A stretch of 64,000 nucleotides of DNA, taken from contig NZ_PGSG01000104.1 of NCBI RefSeq assembly GCF_002843305.1, positions 1 through 64,000 of the forward strand. The letters run 5' to 3'. A program made the position numbers and the translations under genes. Shown one piece after another: positions 36,878-52,404 of this stretch. How positions within the stretch are numbered: the stretch's first letter is position 1; each line of letters opens with the position of its first letter. Origin of the DNA: Streptomyces barkulensis. GTDB taxonomy: Bacteria; Actinomycetota; Actinomycetes; Streptomycetales; Streptomycetaceae. Under the pieces are notes generated by a model, which did not search any database, was not told where the DNA came from, and saw only the letters and a program-made list of their open reading frames with translations.

Positions 36878-38419
36878 TCACCCGATGTCGCGCCGCTCCA
36901 GCGGGTGGGTCGCGGGGCCCTGGATCACCGAACCGTCCGGGGCGAAGCGCGAGCCGTGGCACGGGCACTCCCAGGCCAGTTCCGCGTCGTTGAAGTGGAC
37001 CAGGCAGCCCAGGTGGGTACAGCGGGCCGAGACGGCGTGCAGTTGTCCGCCGGCGTCGCGGTGGACGGCGCAGCGGCTCCCGCCGATCCGCACGACCGCG
37101 CCGTCGCCGGGGGCGATGTCGTCGACGGAGTCGGCGTGGGAGGGGCGCAGCCGGTCGCCGACGAAGTGCTTGGCGACGCCTGCCTGCAGGCCCAGCAGCG
37201 AGGGCGCGTCGCGGAAGCCGGGCAGCCGCCGGGGGTCGTACAGCTTCGCCCAGGCCGGCAGGTCGCCGCCGGTGACGTACCGGGCGAGCAGCCGGCCCGC
37301 CAGCACCCCGCTCGCCATCCCCCAGCCGCCGAAGCCGGTGGCCACGTAGGTGTGGCGCGCGCCGGGGTGGAACGGCCCGATGTACGGCACCCGGTCGGTT
37401 GAGCTGTTGTCCTGGGTGGCCCAGCGGTGGACGATCCGGGTGCCGGGGAAGCGCTCGCGCGTCCAGTCCTCCAGCCTCCCGAAGCGCTCGGTGACGTCGG
37501 CCGTGCCGGGCAGGAACTTCTCACCGGTGACGATCAGGAGCCGCTGCCCGTCCCCGTGGGGCGCGGTGCGCACCGAGCGGGTGTCGTTCTCGGGGGTCAG
37601 GTACATCCCGGCCGGGTCCCGCTCGGCGGGGATCGCGGCGGCGACGACCAGTTCACGGTGCGGCTCCAGCCGGGAGAACAGCAGCGCGCGGTCGAAGACG
37701 GGGTAGTGGGTGGCCACGACGACGGCGTTCGCGGTGACCGTGGCGCCGTTCTCGGCGGTCACCGTGCACGGTTCGCCCTCCTTCAGGTTCACCACCCGGG
37801 TGCGCTCGGCGATCCGCCCGCCGCGCCGCACCAGGTCGTCCGCGAGCGCCAGGAGGAACTTGCGCGGGTGGAACTGCGCCTGGTCGGCCACGCGTACCGC
37901 GCCCCGGACGGGGAAGGGCAGACCGGTCTCGGTGACGTAGGCGGCGGGCAGGCCGGCCTCGGCGGCGGCCTCGGCCTCGGCCCGCAGCTTCCGGGCCGTC
38001 TCCTCGGACTCGGCCCAGGTGTAGGCGGGCACGCGCTCCAGCTCGCAGTCCACGTCCAGCTCGGCGGCGGTCGCGGCCAGGTGCCCGATCGCGTCCTGCT
38101 GGGAGAGCGCGTACATCCGGGCGCCGTCGGCGCCGTGCTTGCTCCGCAGCTCGTCGTAGACCATGCCGTGCAGGGCGCTGACCTTGGCGGTGGTGTGGCC
38201 GGTGACCCCGGCGGCGATCCGGTCGGCCTCCACGACGGTGACCCGGCGGCCGGCGCGGGCGAGCTCCCAGGCGGTGCACAGGCCCGCGATGCCGCCGCCG
38301 ACCACCACGACGTCGGTGTCGGTGCCGCTGCCGGGCTCCAGCGGCGGGTGGGCGGCCTCGGGGGTGACGGGTGCGGTCGCCAGCCAGTACGACTCGTTGT
38401 CGGCAGGGGAAGCGCTCAC
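36878..38419 (-). CDS. FAD-dependent oxidase with C-terminal Rieske [2Fe-2S] domain
   Basis: 513 residues. N-terminal DAO-type FAD domain (DVVVVGGGIAGLCTAWELA near 35-53, GVTGHTTAKVSALHG, GFGGWGMASG) and a C-terminal Rieske domain (about 430-513) with cluster ligands CTHLGC and CPCHGSRF. This fusion oxidises amines or amino acids and can pass electrons through the iron-sulfur centre; substrate unknown. GTG 38419 with AAGGAG overlaps the DUF5709 stop by four bases, so expression is coupled and driven by the stress promoters at 39160-39365. Confidence 0.9.
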   Translation of the reverse strand: MSASPADNESYWLATAPVTPEAAHPPLEPGSGTDTDVVVVGGGIAGLCTAWELARAGRRVTVVEADRIAAGVTGHTTAKVSALHGMVYDELRSKHGADGARMYALSQQDAIGHLAATAAELDVDCELERVPAYTWAESEETARKLRAEAEAAAEAGLPAAYVTETGLPFPVRGAVRVADQAQFHPRKFLLALADDLVRRGGRIAERTRVVNLKEGEPCTVTAENGATVTANAVVVATHYPVFDRALLFSRLEPHRELVVAAAIPAERDPAGMYLTPENDTRSVRTAPHGDGQRLLIVTGEKFLPGTADVTERFGRLEDWTRERFPGTRIVHRWATQDNSSTDRVPYIGPFHPGARHTYVATGFGGWGMASGVLAGRLLARYVTGGDLPAWAKLYDPRRLPGFRDAPSLLGLQAGVAKHFVGDRLRPSHADSVDDIAPGDGAVVRIGGSRCAVHRDAGGQLHAVSARCTHLGCLVHFNDAELAWECPCHGSRFAPDGSVIQGPATHPLERRDIG

Positions 38420-39078
38420 GGCCGGCGGCTCCTTCCGGGCTCGGGACGCACGCCGGTCCCCTCGCCCTCGCCGGACGGGCCGACCTCGCCCACGCCCTCG
38501 GGCGGGCCGGTCCGCCCGGCCTCCTCCTCGCCCCTGAGCTGGCCGACGTCGCGGTCCTCCTCCACGGTGTGGACGGCCGACTCCTCCGGGGACAGCCCCT
38601 CGGCCGCGGACTCGTGGGAGAACACGTCCTGGTTGGCGGGCCGCTCTCCGAGGGGGTCGTCGCTGAGCTGGCCGGTCTCGTCCTCCGGGGGGCCGGAGGC
38701 CCGGGAGGTCTCGCCCACGTCGGGCTCCTCCTCGGCCAGCCGGTCGCCCAGGGGCTTGCCCTCCAGCTGCTCGGAGTAGGTGGTGCCCCACTCCTCGGCG
38801 GCCACCGGGCGCTCGCCGGGCACGGGCATCTGCTGCGGGTCGTTCGCCCACTCCTGCTCGGGCATGCCGTTCTGCAGGTCGGGGATGCCCTCGTCCTCGG
38901 GGCGGCCGCCCGGGTCGTAGGGGGCGTCCAGTGCCGAGTCGCCGGGGCTGGGACCGGTGGCGGGTTCCCCCTCGGGGGGCAGGCCGGGGGTCTCGTCGTC
39001 GTTGACGGTGGCGTCCTCTTCGGCCAGTTCGGGCCTGCTCTCGTCGCCCGCCGCGGTGGGCTCGTTCTCGTCAGCCAT
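38416..39078 (-). CDS. DUF5709-type acidic hydrophilic protein
   Basis: 220 residues, no hydrophobic stretch, strongly acidic and Pro/Gly-rich. The segment ERPVAAEEWGTTYSEQ then LGDRLAEEEPDV is the recognisable actinobacterial DUF5709 core. Family members are small stress-associated proteins without known activity. ATG 39078 with GGAGGGAG upstream. First gene of an operon with the FAD/Rieske oxidase. Two perfect GTTT-N15-GGGTAC promoters (39160-39184, 39341-39365) point at it. Confidence 0.78.
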   Translation of the reverse strand: MADENEPTAAGDESRPELAEEDATVNDDETPGLPPEGEPATGPSPGDSALDAPYDPGGRPEDEGIPDLQNGMPEQEWANDPQQMPVPGERPVAAEEWGTTYSEQLEGKPLGDRLAEEEPDVGETSRASGPPEDETGQLSDDPLGERPANQDVFSHESAAEGLSPEESAVHTVEEDRDVGQLRGEEEAGRTGPPEGVGEVGPSGEGEGTGVRPEPGRSRRP

Positions 39079-39159
39079 GGTCGGTCTCCCTCCGGGTCCC
39101 GGTGTCGGTCAGGGGCGCGCACGCGTCGGTGATCCGGTCGGCTCTCATCGACCCGCCCG

Positions 39160-39184
39160 GTACCCGCCGGTACCGGGCGGAAAC
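39160..39184 (-). promoter_or_regulatory. Sigma-B-type promoter, proximal, for DUF5709 operon
   Basis: Reads GTTT-N15-GGGTAC leftwards (GTTT = complement of 39181-39184; GGGTAC = complement of 39160-39165). It predicts a leader of about 75 bases. Confidence 0.8.
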
Positions 39185-39218
39185 GCGCGGTGTGCCCCGG
39201 CTGCGCACCGATCGTGCC

Positions 39219-39243
39219 GTTTCCGGGACCGGGGCGCGGGTAT
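39219..39243 (+). promoter_or_regulatory. Sigma-B-type promoter, distal, for GCS2 operon
   Basis: GTTT (39219-39222), 15-base spacer, GGGTAT (39238-39243). Exact match to the general-stress consensus. Confidence 0.75.
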
Positions 39244-39340
39244 CCCGGCGCATCGCGTCCGGCGCGGGAGACGGGAAGCGTCCAGGGGGCCGCGGGAAGC
39301 CGCGGTGGCGCCCGGTGCGCACCGGGTGCGAGCGGTCGCG

Positions 39341-39365
39341 GTACCCGTGGCCCGCCCCGGAAAAC
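39341..39365 (-). promoter_or_regulatory. Sigma-B-type promoter, distal, for DUF5709 operon
   Basis: Reads GTTT-N15-GGGTAC leftwards (complement of 39362-39365 and 39341-39346). Overlaps the opposing promoter region, giving an interleaved divergent pair. Confidence 0.75.
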
Positions 39366-39373
39366 CCCCGCCC

Positions 39374-39398
39374 GTTTCGCCGGACGGGCCGGGGGTAC
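39374..39398 (+). promoter_or_regulatory. Sigma-B-type promoter, proximal, for GCS2 operon
   Basis: GTTT (39374-39377), 15-base spacer, GGGTAC (39393-39398). Predicted start near 39405, just before a GTG at 39409. Confidence 0.8.
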
Positions 39399-39441
39399 CC
39401 ACACTGCCGTGACCAGGGATGGAACCGCCGGGGGGCTGACC

Positions 39442-40545
39442 ATGGGGGTCGAGGAGGAGTTCCTCCTGGCCGACCCGACGACCGCCCGCGCCGTGGCCGG
39501 CGCCCAGGCGGTACTGCGCCGCGCCCACCACGAGGCGTCCGCCGCCGACGGCTCCGGCTACAAGGCGGAGTTCCTCTCCAGCCAGGTGGAGTCCGCCACC
39601 GGGGTGTGCACCTCGCTGGAGGAGATCCGCGGTGAGCTGGCGGGGGACCGCGCCCGGCTGGTGGACGCCGCCCGGGAGGAGGGTCTGCTGCTGCTGTCCT
39701 CCGGGACGGCGGTGCTGAGCGACGGGCGTCCTCCGGTGGCCGAGGGGGAACGCTTCCGCCGCGTCTCGGAGCTCTTCGCCGACATCGTGGACGACTACCA
39801 GGTGTGCGGCTGCCACGTCCATGTGGGCGTGCCGGACCGGGATACGGCGGTGGCCGTGGTCAACCGGGTGCGCCGCTGGCTGCCGACGCTGCTGGCACTG
39901 TCGGTCAACTCCCCCTTCTGCGAGGGCCGCGACCGCGGTTACGCCAGCTGGCGCATGATGGAGCAGCTGCGCTTCCCCGCCGCCGGGATGCCTCCCCGCT
40001 TCCCCGACGCCGCCTTCCACGACGCGGAGGTGGAGCGGCTGGTGTCCTACGGGGCGCTGATCGACGACCGGATGAGCTTCTGGCTGATGCGCCCCTCGCC
40101 GTGGCTGCCCACGGTCGAGTTCCGGGTCGCGGACGCGGCGGCCACCGTCGACGACGCGGTGCTCCAGGCCGCGCTGGGGCGGGCCCTGGTGCGCCGGGCG
40201 CTGGCCGAGCTGGAGGCGGGGGTGCCGGAGCCGGAGCTGGACGAGCGGGCGGCCAGGGCCGCGGTGTGGTCCGCGGCGCGCTACGGGCTGCGGGGCGACG
40301 GCGTCGATCCGGTCGCCCGCGCCCGCGTGCCGGCCGGCGAACTGCTTCGGGCGCTGCTGCGGCACGTCGCGCCCGCCCTGGAGGAGACCGGGGACACCGA
40401 GGCCGTACGGCGGCTGCTGGAGACGGTGCGCGAGGACGGCACCGGGGCCGAGAGGCAGCGGCGTGCCTGGGCACGGGGCGGCCCCCGGGCGGTGGTGGAA
40501 CTGCTGGCCGCCCAGACCGACGCGAGGGAGCGCAAGCGGGCATGA
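39442..40545 (+). CDS. GCS2/YbdK-type carboxylate-amine (glutamate-cysteine) ligase
   Basis: 367 residues from ATG 39442. The family normally begins within a few residues of GVEEEF, as here; an in-frame GTG at 39409 is the alternative and would be nearly leaderless. Motifs: GVEEEFLLADP, CGCHVHVGVPD, LSVNSPFCEGRDRGYAS and LPTVEFRVAD. The fold makes gamma-glutamyl amides, ATP-dependent; EgtA-like members make gamma-glutamylcysteine. Its stop overlaps the start of a di-iron enzyme gene (ATGA), so both act together. Preceded by two sigma-B-type promoters. Confidence 0.88.
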   Translation: MGVEEEFLLADPTTARAVAGAQAVLRRAHHEASAADGSGYKAEFLSSQVESATGVCTSLEEIRGELAGDRARLVDAAREEGLLLLSSGTAVLSDGRPPVAEGERFRRVSELFADIVDDYQVCGCHVHVGVPDRDTAVAVVNRVRRWLPTLLALSVNSPFCEGRDRGYASWRMMEQLRFPAAGMPPRFPDAAFHDAEVERLVSYGALIDDRMSFWLMRPSPWLPTVEFRVADAAATVDDAVLQAALGRALVRRALAELEAGVPEPELDERAARAAVWSAARYGLRGDGVDPVARARVPAGELLRALLRHVAPALEETGDTEAVRRLLETVREDGTGAERQRRAWARGGPRAVVELLAAQTDARERKRA

Positions 40546-41612
40546 CGACAACCACCGGTACCGCCGCCGGTACGGCCGGTTCCGCCGCCGGAGCCCCCTC
40601 GGGCGCCGTCACAGCGGAGCTTCCCTCGGCGCGCGGCGAGTTGAGTTCAGCGGTGCTGGCGGCCCTGGCCGCCCCGCCGCCCGCGCGGCTGCCGTCGTCC
40701 CTCAAGGCGGCGGTGGAGAGGGCCGACCCGTACGGCGAGGACCTGCAACTGGCCCTGTACGTCTGCTACGAGCTGCACTACCGGGGCTTCGCGGGCGTGT
40801 CGGCCGAGTGGGAGTGGGATCCGGACCTGCTGCGGCTGCGCGCCGGTCTGGAGCGGGTCTTCCTGAGCGCCCTGCGCCGCGACACCCTCACCGGCACGGC
40901 CTCGGACTCGGACGTGGCCGCCGCTCTGGAGCCGCTGCTGGTGGAGCCGGCCGAGGGCGGCGGGGTGTCGGACTTCCTGCTGCGCGAGGGCGAGTGGTGG
41001 CAGATGCGCGAGTACATCGCGCACCGCTCGGTCTACCACCTCAAGGAGGCCGACCCGCACGCCTGGGTCATCCCCCGTCTCGACGGCCAGGCCAAGGCGT
41101 CGCTGGTGGCGGTGGAGTACGACGAGTTCGGCGGGGGCCGCGGGGAGCGGGTGCACGCGCGGCTGTTCGCGGACCTGATGGCGGGCGCGGGCCTGGACCC
41201 GTCCTATCTGCGCCATCTCGACGATGTGCCCGCCCCGGTCGTCGCCGGGGTGAACCTGATGTCGCTGTGCGGGCTGCACCGTTCCCTGCGCGGCGCGCTG
41301 GTGGGCCACTTCGCGGCGGCCGAGATCAGCACCGCCCCCAGCGCCCGGAAGATGGCCAGGGCGCTGGAGCGGATGGGCGCCGCGCCCGAGTGCGTGCTGT
41401 TCTTCACCGAGCACATCGAGGCGGACGCCGTGCACGAGCAGGTGATGCGCCGGGACGTCATCGGCGATCTGCTGGCGCGCGAGCCGGAGCTGGCCGCCGA
41501 CGTCGTGTTCGGCGTCCGCGCCACCGAGCTGCTGGAGGAGCGTCTGGCGGACCGTCTGCTGGGCGCCTGGCGGGCCGGCGCCACCTCGCTGCGGCGCCCG
41601 CTGGAGACCTGA
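40542..41612 (+). CDS. Iron-containing redox enzyme (heme-oxygenase-like di-iron fold)
   Basis: 356 residues, helical. The signature VEYDEFGGGRGERVHARLF and the later FFTEHIEADAVHEQV are the ligand-bearing helices of the iron-containing redox family (heme-oxygenase-like oxidases and oxygenases); WWQMREYIAHRSVYHLKEADPHAW supplies another His. Relatives cleave C-N or C-C bonds or N-oxygenate amines. ATG 40542 overlaps the ligase stop by four bases. Converges on a CDGSH gene after 18 bases. A ligase feeding an O2-dependent oxidase is the simplest reading; the substrate is unknown. Confidence 0.85.
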   Translation: MTTTTGTAAGTAGSAAGAPSGAVTAELPSARGELSSAVLAALAAPPPARLPSSLKAAVERADPYGEDLQLALYVCYELHYRGFAGVSAEWEWDPDLLRLRAGLERVFLSALRRDTLTGTASDSDVAAALEPLLVEPAEGGGVSDFLLREGEWWQMREYIAHRSVYHLKEADPHAWVIPRLDGQAKASLVAVEYDEFGGGRGERVHARLFADLMAGAGLDPSYLRHLDDVPAPVVAGVNLMSLCGLHRSLRGALVGHFAAAEISTAPSARKMARALERMGAAPECVLFFTEHIEADAVHEQVMRRDVIGDLLAREPELAADVVFGVRATELLEERLADRLLGAWRAGATSLRRPLET

Positions 41613-51660: not shown

Positions 51661-51685
51661 GTACCCGGGGCGAGGGGACGGAAAC
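51661..51685 (-). promoter_or_regulatory. Sigma-B-type promoter for membrane protein/DUF2180 operon
   Basis: Reads GTTT-N15-GGGTAC leftwards (complement of 51682-51685 and 51661-51666). About 33 bases from the GTG start. Confidence 0.8.
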
Positions 51686-51736: not shown

Positions 51737-51761
51737 GTTTCCCCTCCGGGAGGGCGGGTAC
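51737..51761 (+). promoter_or_regulatory. Sigma-B-type promoter for hemerythrin operon
   Basis: GTTT (51737-51740), 15-base spacer, GGGTAC (51756-51761), 40 bases before the ATG. Back-to-back with the promoter at 51661-51685. Confidence 0.82.
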
Positions 51762-51801: not shown

Positions 51802-52404
51802 ATGGCTGGACGGGACATATCGCCCGGCGCCGTCGCGGAGGAGGACGTGGTGGCCCTGCTGACGCGGCGGCACGACGAGATCCGGGAGCTGTTCGACGCC
51901 GTGGAGAACGCCGCCGCCTGCGATGACGACAGCGGCGACGGGTGCCGGGCGGCGTTCCGGCGGCTGGTGCGGGTGCTGACCGCGCACGAGACCGCCGAGG
52001 AGGAGATCGTCCACCCGTACGCGCGCGGTGCCCTCGAGGGCGGCGAGGAGATCGTCGCGGCGCGGCTGGAGGAGGAGCGGCGGACCGGGCGGGCGCTGCT
52101 GCGGCTGGAGTCGATGGACTGCGCGGGGGACGGCCGGGCGGCCTTCCTGCGGGAGCTCGCGGCGCTGCGCGAGGAGACGGAGGCGCACACACGCGCCGAG
52201 GAGCGCTACGAGTTCCCCCCTCTGGAGGCCGGAGGCGACCCCGAGTGGCGCAGGGCGATGGCCCGGGCCGTGCGGGCCGCGGAGTCGGTGGCTCCCGCCC
52301 GTCCGTACCCCGCGGCCGTGCCGGACGGTGAAGACGCCGCGGCGGGCCCGTTCGCCGCCGTGGTGGACCGGGCCCGGGGCGCGCTGCGCCGGGAGGAGCG
52401 GTGA
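51802..52404 (+). CDS. Hemerythrin HHE-domain protein
   Basis: 200 residues, helical. Metal-binding pattern: LTRRHDEIRELF (His), LTAHETAEEEIVHPYA (His, Glu, His) and EAHTRAEERYEFPPL (His, Glu). Family members bind a di-iron centre and handle O2, NO or H2O2. ATG 51802 with GGAGGAG; perfect sigma-B-type promoter 40 bases upstream. The stop overlaps the next start as GTGA, coupling it to an NAD-dependent epimerase. Confidence 0.88.
   Translation: MAGRDISPGAVAEEDVVALLTRRHDEIRELFDAVENAAACDDDSGDGCRAAFRRLVRVLTAHETAEEEIVHPYARGALEGGEEIVAARLEEERRTGRALLRLESMDCAGDGRAAFLRELAALREETEAHTRAEERYEFPPLEAGGDPEWRRAMARAVRAAESVAPARPYPAAVPDGEDAAAGPFAAVVDRARGALRREER

Follow-up and report, generated by a model that had tools for sequence, protein, structure and literature searches.

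Why should one short intergenic region between two divergent operons carry four SigB-type promoter motifs, two facing each way? In the 64,000-nucleotide stretch of DNA analysed here (the window), an operon coding for a DUF5709-like protein and a FAD-Rieske oxidoreductase lies back to back with an operon coding for a GCS2-type ligase and a di-iron enzyme (Table 1), and an earlier note had taken the four motifs between them as a sign of strong, coordinated stress control of both. Literature searches gave no paper title on this locus among the matches listed. The motif, the architecture in relatives, the nesting of the change, the absence of genes and the state of the promoter boxes, all read from sequence, point to a different origin: with a probability of about 0.86, the cluster is the scar of a deletion of approximately 2.05–2.1 kb, by which two divergent SigB-family promoter pairs were fused and two of the four promoters were left as orphans.

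Table 1. Features of the window discussed in the text (window positions)
Feature	Positions	Strand	Remarks
FAD-dependent oxidoreductase with C-terminal Rieske domain	36878-38419	-	PF01266 E 6.7e-53, PF00355 E 7.6e-15 (scores taken on the longer mechanical ORF 36878-38851); start placed by its overlap with the DUF5709 gene
DUF5709-like gene, first of leftward operon	38416-39078	-	PF18970 24.1 bits, below the cut-off of 27.5
Promoter B-	39160-39184	-	GTTT-N15-GGGTAC, exact; nearest to the DUF5709/FAD-Rieske operon, leftwards
Promoter B+	39219-39243	+	Exact match, -10 GGGTAT; putative orphan, ancestrally of the deleted putative ferritin-like gene
Scar between promoter pairs	39244-39340	none	Some 2.05-2.1 kb with two genes probably missing; junction not sharp
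Promoter A-	39341-39365	-	Exact match; putative orphan, ancestrally of the deleted hemerythrin gene HHE1
Promoter A+	39374-39398	+	GTTT-N15-GGGTAC, exact; nearest to the GCS2/di-iron operon, rightwards
GCS2/YbdK-type carboxylate-amine ligase	39409-40545	+	PF04107 E 2.1e-48, TIGR02050 over cut-off (scores computed on the ATG 39442 form); probable GTG start
Iron-containing redox enzyme (di-iron, haem-oxygenase-like)	40542-41612	+	PF14518 E 3.5e-58
Second pair, leftward member	51661-51685	-	Same motif, exact; ORF on its left of 137 aa, without Pfam match
Second pair, rightward member	51737-51761	+	Same motif, exact; upstream of HHE2
HHE2, hemerythrin-domain protein	51802-52404	+	PF01814 E 3.1e-16; 51% identical to HHE1

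The four sites resemble SigB-family promoters

A pattern scan returned the four sites at the positions and on the strands given in the earlier note, all of them exact GTTT-N15-GGGTAY matches with an identical 15-base spacer; the note's list was correct for these and lacked two further exact sites, which form a second divergent pair in the window. All four lie within 240 bp, with B+ and A- convergent and 97 bp apart, and among pairs with both members intact the gap between the -35 boxes is 7–10 bp in pair A and 33–35 bp in pair B. Neither sigma-70 promoters nor terminator-like sites were found in 38900–39600. The view that so many copies cannot be chance was borne out: dinucleotide-preserving shuffles of the 64-kb window gave a mean of 0.02 matches, and the whole-genome scan that the earlier note had suggested yielded 11 exact matches in 6.53 Mb (six in the window, four at the DUF5709–GCS2 locus) compared with 3 for a reversed-pattern control, which together rule out a chance origin of the sites. 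When spacers of 12–18 bases were allowed, 26 matches were found in the genome (control: 8), 11 of them with the 15-base spacer and one to four with every other length (hand count of the list), a distribution that excludes coincidence as the source of the 15-base spacer. Beyond the window, all five sites have an ORF of at least 60 aa that starts no more than 400 nt downstream. Four of these ORFs have a Pfam match: DUF2267 (PF10025), DUF4383 (PF14325), a molybdopterin Fe4S4 protein (PF04879) and a short-chain dehydrogenase (PF13561/PF00106). The fifth, of 108 aa, has none.

The same exact form was counted in related genomes. The nine genomes of the S. pini clade, to which the window strain belongs, hold 94 exact sites, with a mean of 10.4 per genome against 1.1 for the control, whereas 59 other genomes of the genus hold 105, with a mean of 1.8 against 2.1 (the outgroup genome G462, placed in neither group, has two matches, control 0). 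Strong enrichment of the GTTT-N15-GGGTAY form was seen in the S. pini clade and not in the 59 other members of the genus, a count that covers this exact form only; elsewhere in Streptomyces the boxes may be looser or the spacers different. With GTTT, the spacer length and GGGTA imposed by the search, the final base is C in 92 of the 94 clade sites, and GTTT is followed by C in 75; the GGGTAT of B+ in the window is a variant present in two of the 94. These sites point to a compact SigB-type regulon in the clade that would include, among others, iron, redox and hemerythrin proteins.

Every one of the four sites has a -35 GTTT, a -10 GGGTAY and a hexamer spacing of N13 (accepted for SigB-family promoters, N12–14). 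When seven proteins of the window strain were scanned, six sigma factors scored over the cut-off of TIGR02980 (SigB/SigF/SigG) and the seventh was WhiG-like. The boxes and their spacing, the enrichment, the conservation in relatives and the six SigBFG-type sigma factors support the view that the sites are SigB-family promoters rather than chance matches. PMC8346170 quotes GTTTAA-N12-14-GGGWAW for SigB promoters of B. subtilis, and for the nine SigB homologues of S. coelicolor a GTTT-type -35 and a -10 of GGG.A. at a comparable spacing. The sites had been said to equal the Bacillus/Streptomyces sigma-B consensus; the Streptomyces half of that statement stands, and the Bacillus half does not, for although the window hexamer spacing is also 13, the final C of GGGTAC departs from GGGWAW, and the host genome, unlike the Bacillus system, has six SigBFG-type sigma factors.

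According to PMC8346170, the GTTT box is better conserved at the sporulation-type SigF/H/N promoters and a looser GNNT is given for the osmotic-stress group SigB/L/M. The motif of the S. pini clade is stricter than that of S. coelicolor, and its strict GTTT is nearer to SigF/H/N than to SigB/L/M; given this reported difference, the regulon may as well be one of sporulation as one of general stress. We infer that a SigB/F/G-type sigma factor reads the sites and that the flanking genes would respond to stress. A related case, described in PMC3613396, is that of the Streptomyces dps promoters, which were sought with GNNTN(N)14-16GGGYAY: there too the presence or absence of the motif varies between related genes, and it tracks osmotic induction, the motif-bearing dps genes being up-regulated by osmotic stress. 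In the dps case, however, the promoters vary between gene copies, whereas here genes appear to have been lost and promoters remain.

The locus exists in two arrangements

Comparison of the same intergenic region in relatives, a check that the earlier note had proposed, revealed two architectures, split (five genomes) and fused (four genomes). The split arrangement was found in S. radiopugnans, S. megasporus, S. carminius, strain G113 and strain DH37, in the last on two contigs (L084 and L215), and the fused one in the window strain, S. pini PL19, S. verrucosisporus and strain CNQ085. In split genomes, B- and B+ lie back to back between the DUF5709 operon and a gene for a 402-aa putative ferritin-like protein, which is followed by HHE1, coding for a hemerythrin (PF01814), with A- and A+ back to back between HHE1 and the GCS2 operon. 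The two divergent pairs are 2.1–2.3 kb apart in the four split genomes with the locus on a single contig (L082, L085, L087 and L161). The counterpart of B+ precedes the ferritin-like gene and that of A- precedes HHE1 in all five split genomes, so that the two promoters per direction do not look purpose-built: in these relatives the counterparts of B+ and A- would serve two other genes, neither of which was found in the genome of the window strain. Of the deep outgroups, ACA25 and G462, neither has one of these arrangements, and no DUF5709 match was found in their loci examined. A 24-base probe allowing up to 3 mismatches matched, besides the window, only G191 and, with one weak match, G247 among 296 genomes, a sample to which G518, G351, G486 and G113 do not belong.

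The 402-aa protein (L082:7856–9064 in S. radiopugnans) has an identity of 91–96% among the split strains; in G462 the figure is 82%. It had no Pfam match and no significant PDB match (best E 0.34), its best NCBIfam hit was the encapsulin-associated ferritin-like family TIGR04535 with 20.7 bits (cut-off 125), and its AlphaFold model is poor (mean pLDDT 37.7); the name ferritin-like, which derives in part from its Glu/His motifs, is tentative. As for DUF5709, one encapsulin paper was found in the literature. The HHE1 leader of S. radiopugnans (L082:9776–9896) contains a 13-bp hairpin (z -3.6). A conserved hairpin was not found in this leader among the other split strains compared (against shuffles, z -1.3 in DH37 and -1.0 in S. 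megasporus; none evident in S. carminius).

Aligned with S. radiopugnans, the BLAST matches of the window stop at 39268 (L082 7777) and restart at 39310 (L082 9870). Best-junction alignments for the four fused strains put the missing segment at 2048–2107 bp. The join is not sharp, and since the junction in CNQ085 differs from that in the other fused strains, two independent deletions are possible. The ancestral state would have been two divergent pairs providing each of four genes or operons with a promoter of its own, and loss of the ferritin-like gene and HHE1 would have brought the four promoters together.

Promoters that probably lost their genes may be starting to decay

B- and A+ were intact in all nine clade genomes examined; among the nine B- copies, pairwise identity was 1.00 in both boxes and 0.69 in the 20 bases upstream (sites chosen by motif). 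Together with the B+ and A- copies of the split genomes (five each, the A- of S. carminius intact with a 16-base spacer), all 28 gene-linked copies were intact. Among the eight orphan copies of the fused clade, five were intact and three broken: B+ was intact in three of the four fused strains and broken in CNQ085 (GTTC, GGGCGC), and A- was intact in two, the altered copies being those of S. pini PL19, with GTCT and a 16-base spacer, and of S. verrucosisporus, with GTCC. Fisher's test of three broken orphans out of eight versus none out of 28 gene-linked copies gave 0.008, and within the fused clade alone (gene-linked 8/8 intact versus orphan 5/8) p = 0.1, both values being rough since the rows are related. 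The orphans B+ and A- seem to be starting to decay, and we infer that their activity is dispensable. The pattern also provides a small natural experiment: in closely related strains, counterparts of one SigB-type promoter can be compared where it has a gene to drive and where it has none.

The conservation of B- and A+ in all nine genomes gives good support to control of the flanking operons by these two promoters, which would most likely still drive them under a SigB-family sigma factor. Of the claim of strong, coordinated control of two operons, what survives is one promoter per operon; two promoters per direction as an evolved design is not supported. Since the window strain keeps all four boxes, its orphans may still be used, and B+ and A-, facing each other, may still fire, yielding antisense RNA or, for the flanking operons, transcripts with long leaders. 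An arrangement in which all four promoters function and which is now adaptive, giving each operon a tandem second SigB-type promoter and with it the stronger joint control proposed in the earlier note, would be compatible with a deletion. In its favour are the matching boxes of the window strain, the five of eight orphan copies still intact in the fused clade and the lack of terminator-like matches in the region scanned; yet only one of the four fused strains, the window strain, has kept all four boxes intact, three apparently separate changes have hit B+ or A- and none B- or A+, and the convergent B+ and A- could interfere with each other across 97 bp, which makes this reading unlikely. The narrower idea that in the window strain the orphans have been captured as tandem second promoters of the flanking operons, firing head-on over the 100-bp scar, is doubtful, if slightly less so; if true, it would represent a natural gain of regulatory complexity through gene loss, within a lineage-specific regulon with an unusually rigid GTTT-N15-GGGTAC promoter, 4 of whose 11 sites in the genome crowd together here.

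On the preferred reading, that of a deletion scar, gene loss can produce a promoter array that seems elaborate. For those who read raw sequence this is a warning that the number of promoters does not by itself indicate selection for strong control. A literature search of a limited library found no paper on orphan promoters left by gene loss or deletion in bacteria.

The fused arrangement is nested within the split one

A tree built from six genes that flank the locus, with 6205 columns and 11 rows, unites the four fused strains in one clade (99/100); its sister is the split S. radiopugnans (99/100), and the remaining split strains fall outside. DH37 and ACA25 fill less than half of the columns of this tree, the outgroups G462 and ACA25 sit on long branches (for which the program gave a warning) and support at the base of the ingroup is poor. 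With the fused strains nested within the split ones, one deletion suffices, whereas insertion of the two genes between the pairs of a fused ancestor would need several independent events at one and the same point. Outgroup G462 has the ferritin-like gene together with a hemerythrin gene on a contig other than that of GCS2, which shows that the two are not tied to this locus and speaks for an insertion; the nesting and the fact that B+ and A- precede exactly these two genes in five of five split genomes nevertheless make it very improbable.

Gene absence is in line with a deletion. The ferritin-like gene had no match in any of the four fused genomes (G000, G518, G519 and G520) and was found in all five split ones; its relocation in the fused strains was ruled out by this lack of a match. 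HHE1 gave no tblastn match in the fused loci, in a search of the relatives' loci that had FAD-Rieske outside its set of queries. When the four fused genomes were searched with the 51% identical paralogue HHE2 as the query, no HHE1-like match appeared, the matches being HHE2 itself in three of them (not in CNQ085) and otherwise relatives of 34–35% identity. Relocation of HHE1 as HHE2 was likewise ruled out, as the two are only 51% identical and relatives of both co-occur in S. radiopugnans and DH37. Redundancy with HHE2 was rejected as a general reason for the loss of HHE1: CNQ085, whose 4.9 Mb genome may be incomplete, shows neither gene and just a 35% identical relative.

GCS2 probably starts close behind promoter A+

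An in-frame GTG lies exactly 10 nt after the -10 box of A+ in nine of nine clade genomes and also in Streptomyces sp. ACA25, which has a GCS2 of 58% identity. GTG 39409 rather than ATG 39442 is probably the start of GCS2, and the region between the operons, previously delimited as 39079–39441, would then have to be corrected at its right end, its non-coding part ending near 39408. The conserved GTG so close to the -10 suggests that the GCS2 mRNA of the clade probably has no leader or almost none, and points to a conserved transcript of this kind. Among 82 GCS2 loci, 20 have a GNNT-N14-16-GGGTAY site within 250 bp upstream (1.15 expected from mononucleotide shuffles), 11 of them from outside the clade; an in-frame start follows the -10 by 9–11 nt in 12 of the 20. 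Starts at 9 and 11 nt, with 16-base spacers, were seen in Actinophytocola algeriensis (L156) and a Micromonospora (L111).

That the sites are large inverted-repeat binding sites of another regulator and not promoters, as the back-to-back pairs both here and at HHE2 might suggest, is scarcely credible, given that the gap between pair members varies while the box-to-box spacing is constant at 15 (once 16), that single unpaired sites precede other ORFs and that so many GCS2 loci have a start at a near-fixed distance from the -10.

The second divergent pair of the window, beside HHE2, was also found in S. pini PL19, S. radiopugnans, S. verrucosisporus and DH37. Elsewhere in the genome of the window strain (G000:C103:11083–12298), a gene for a distant hemerythrin-domain protein, with 34% identity to HHE2, adjoins the gene of one of the six SigBFG-type sigma factors.
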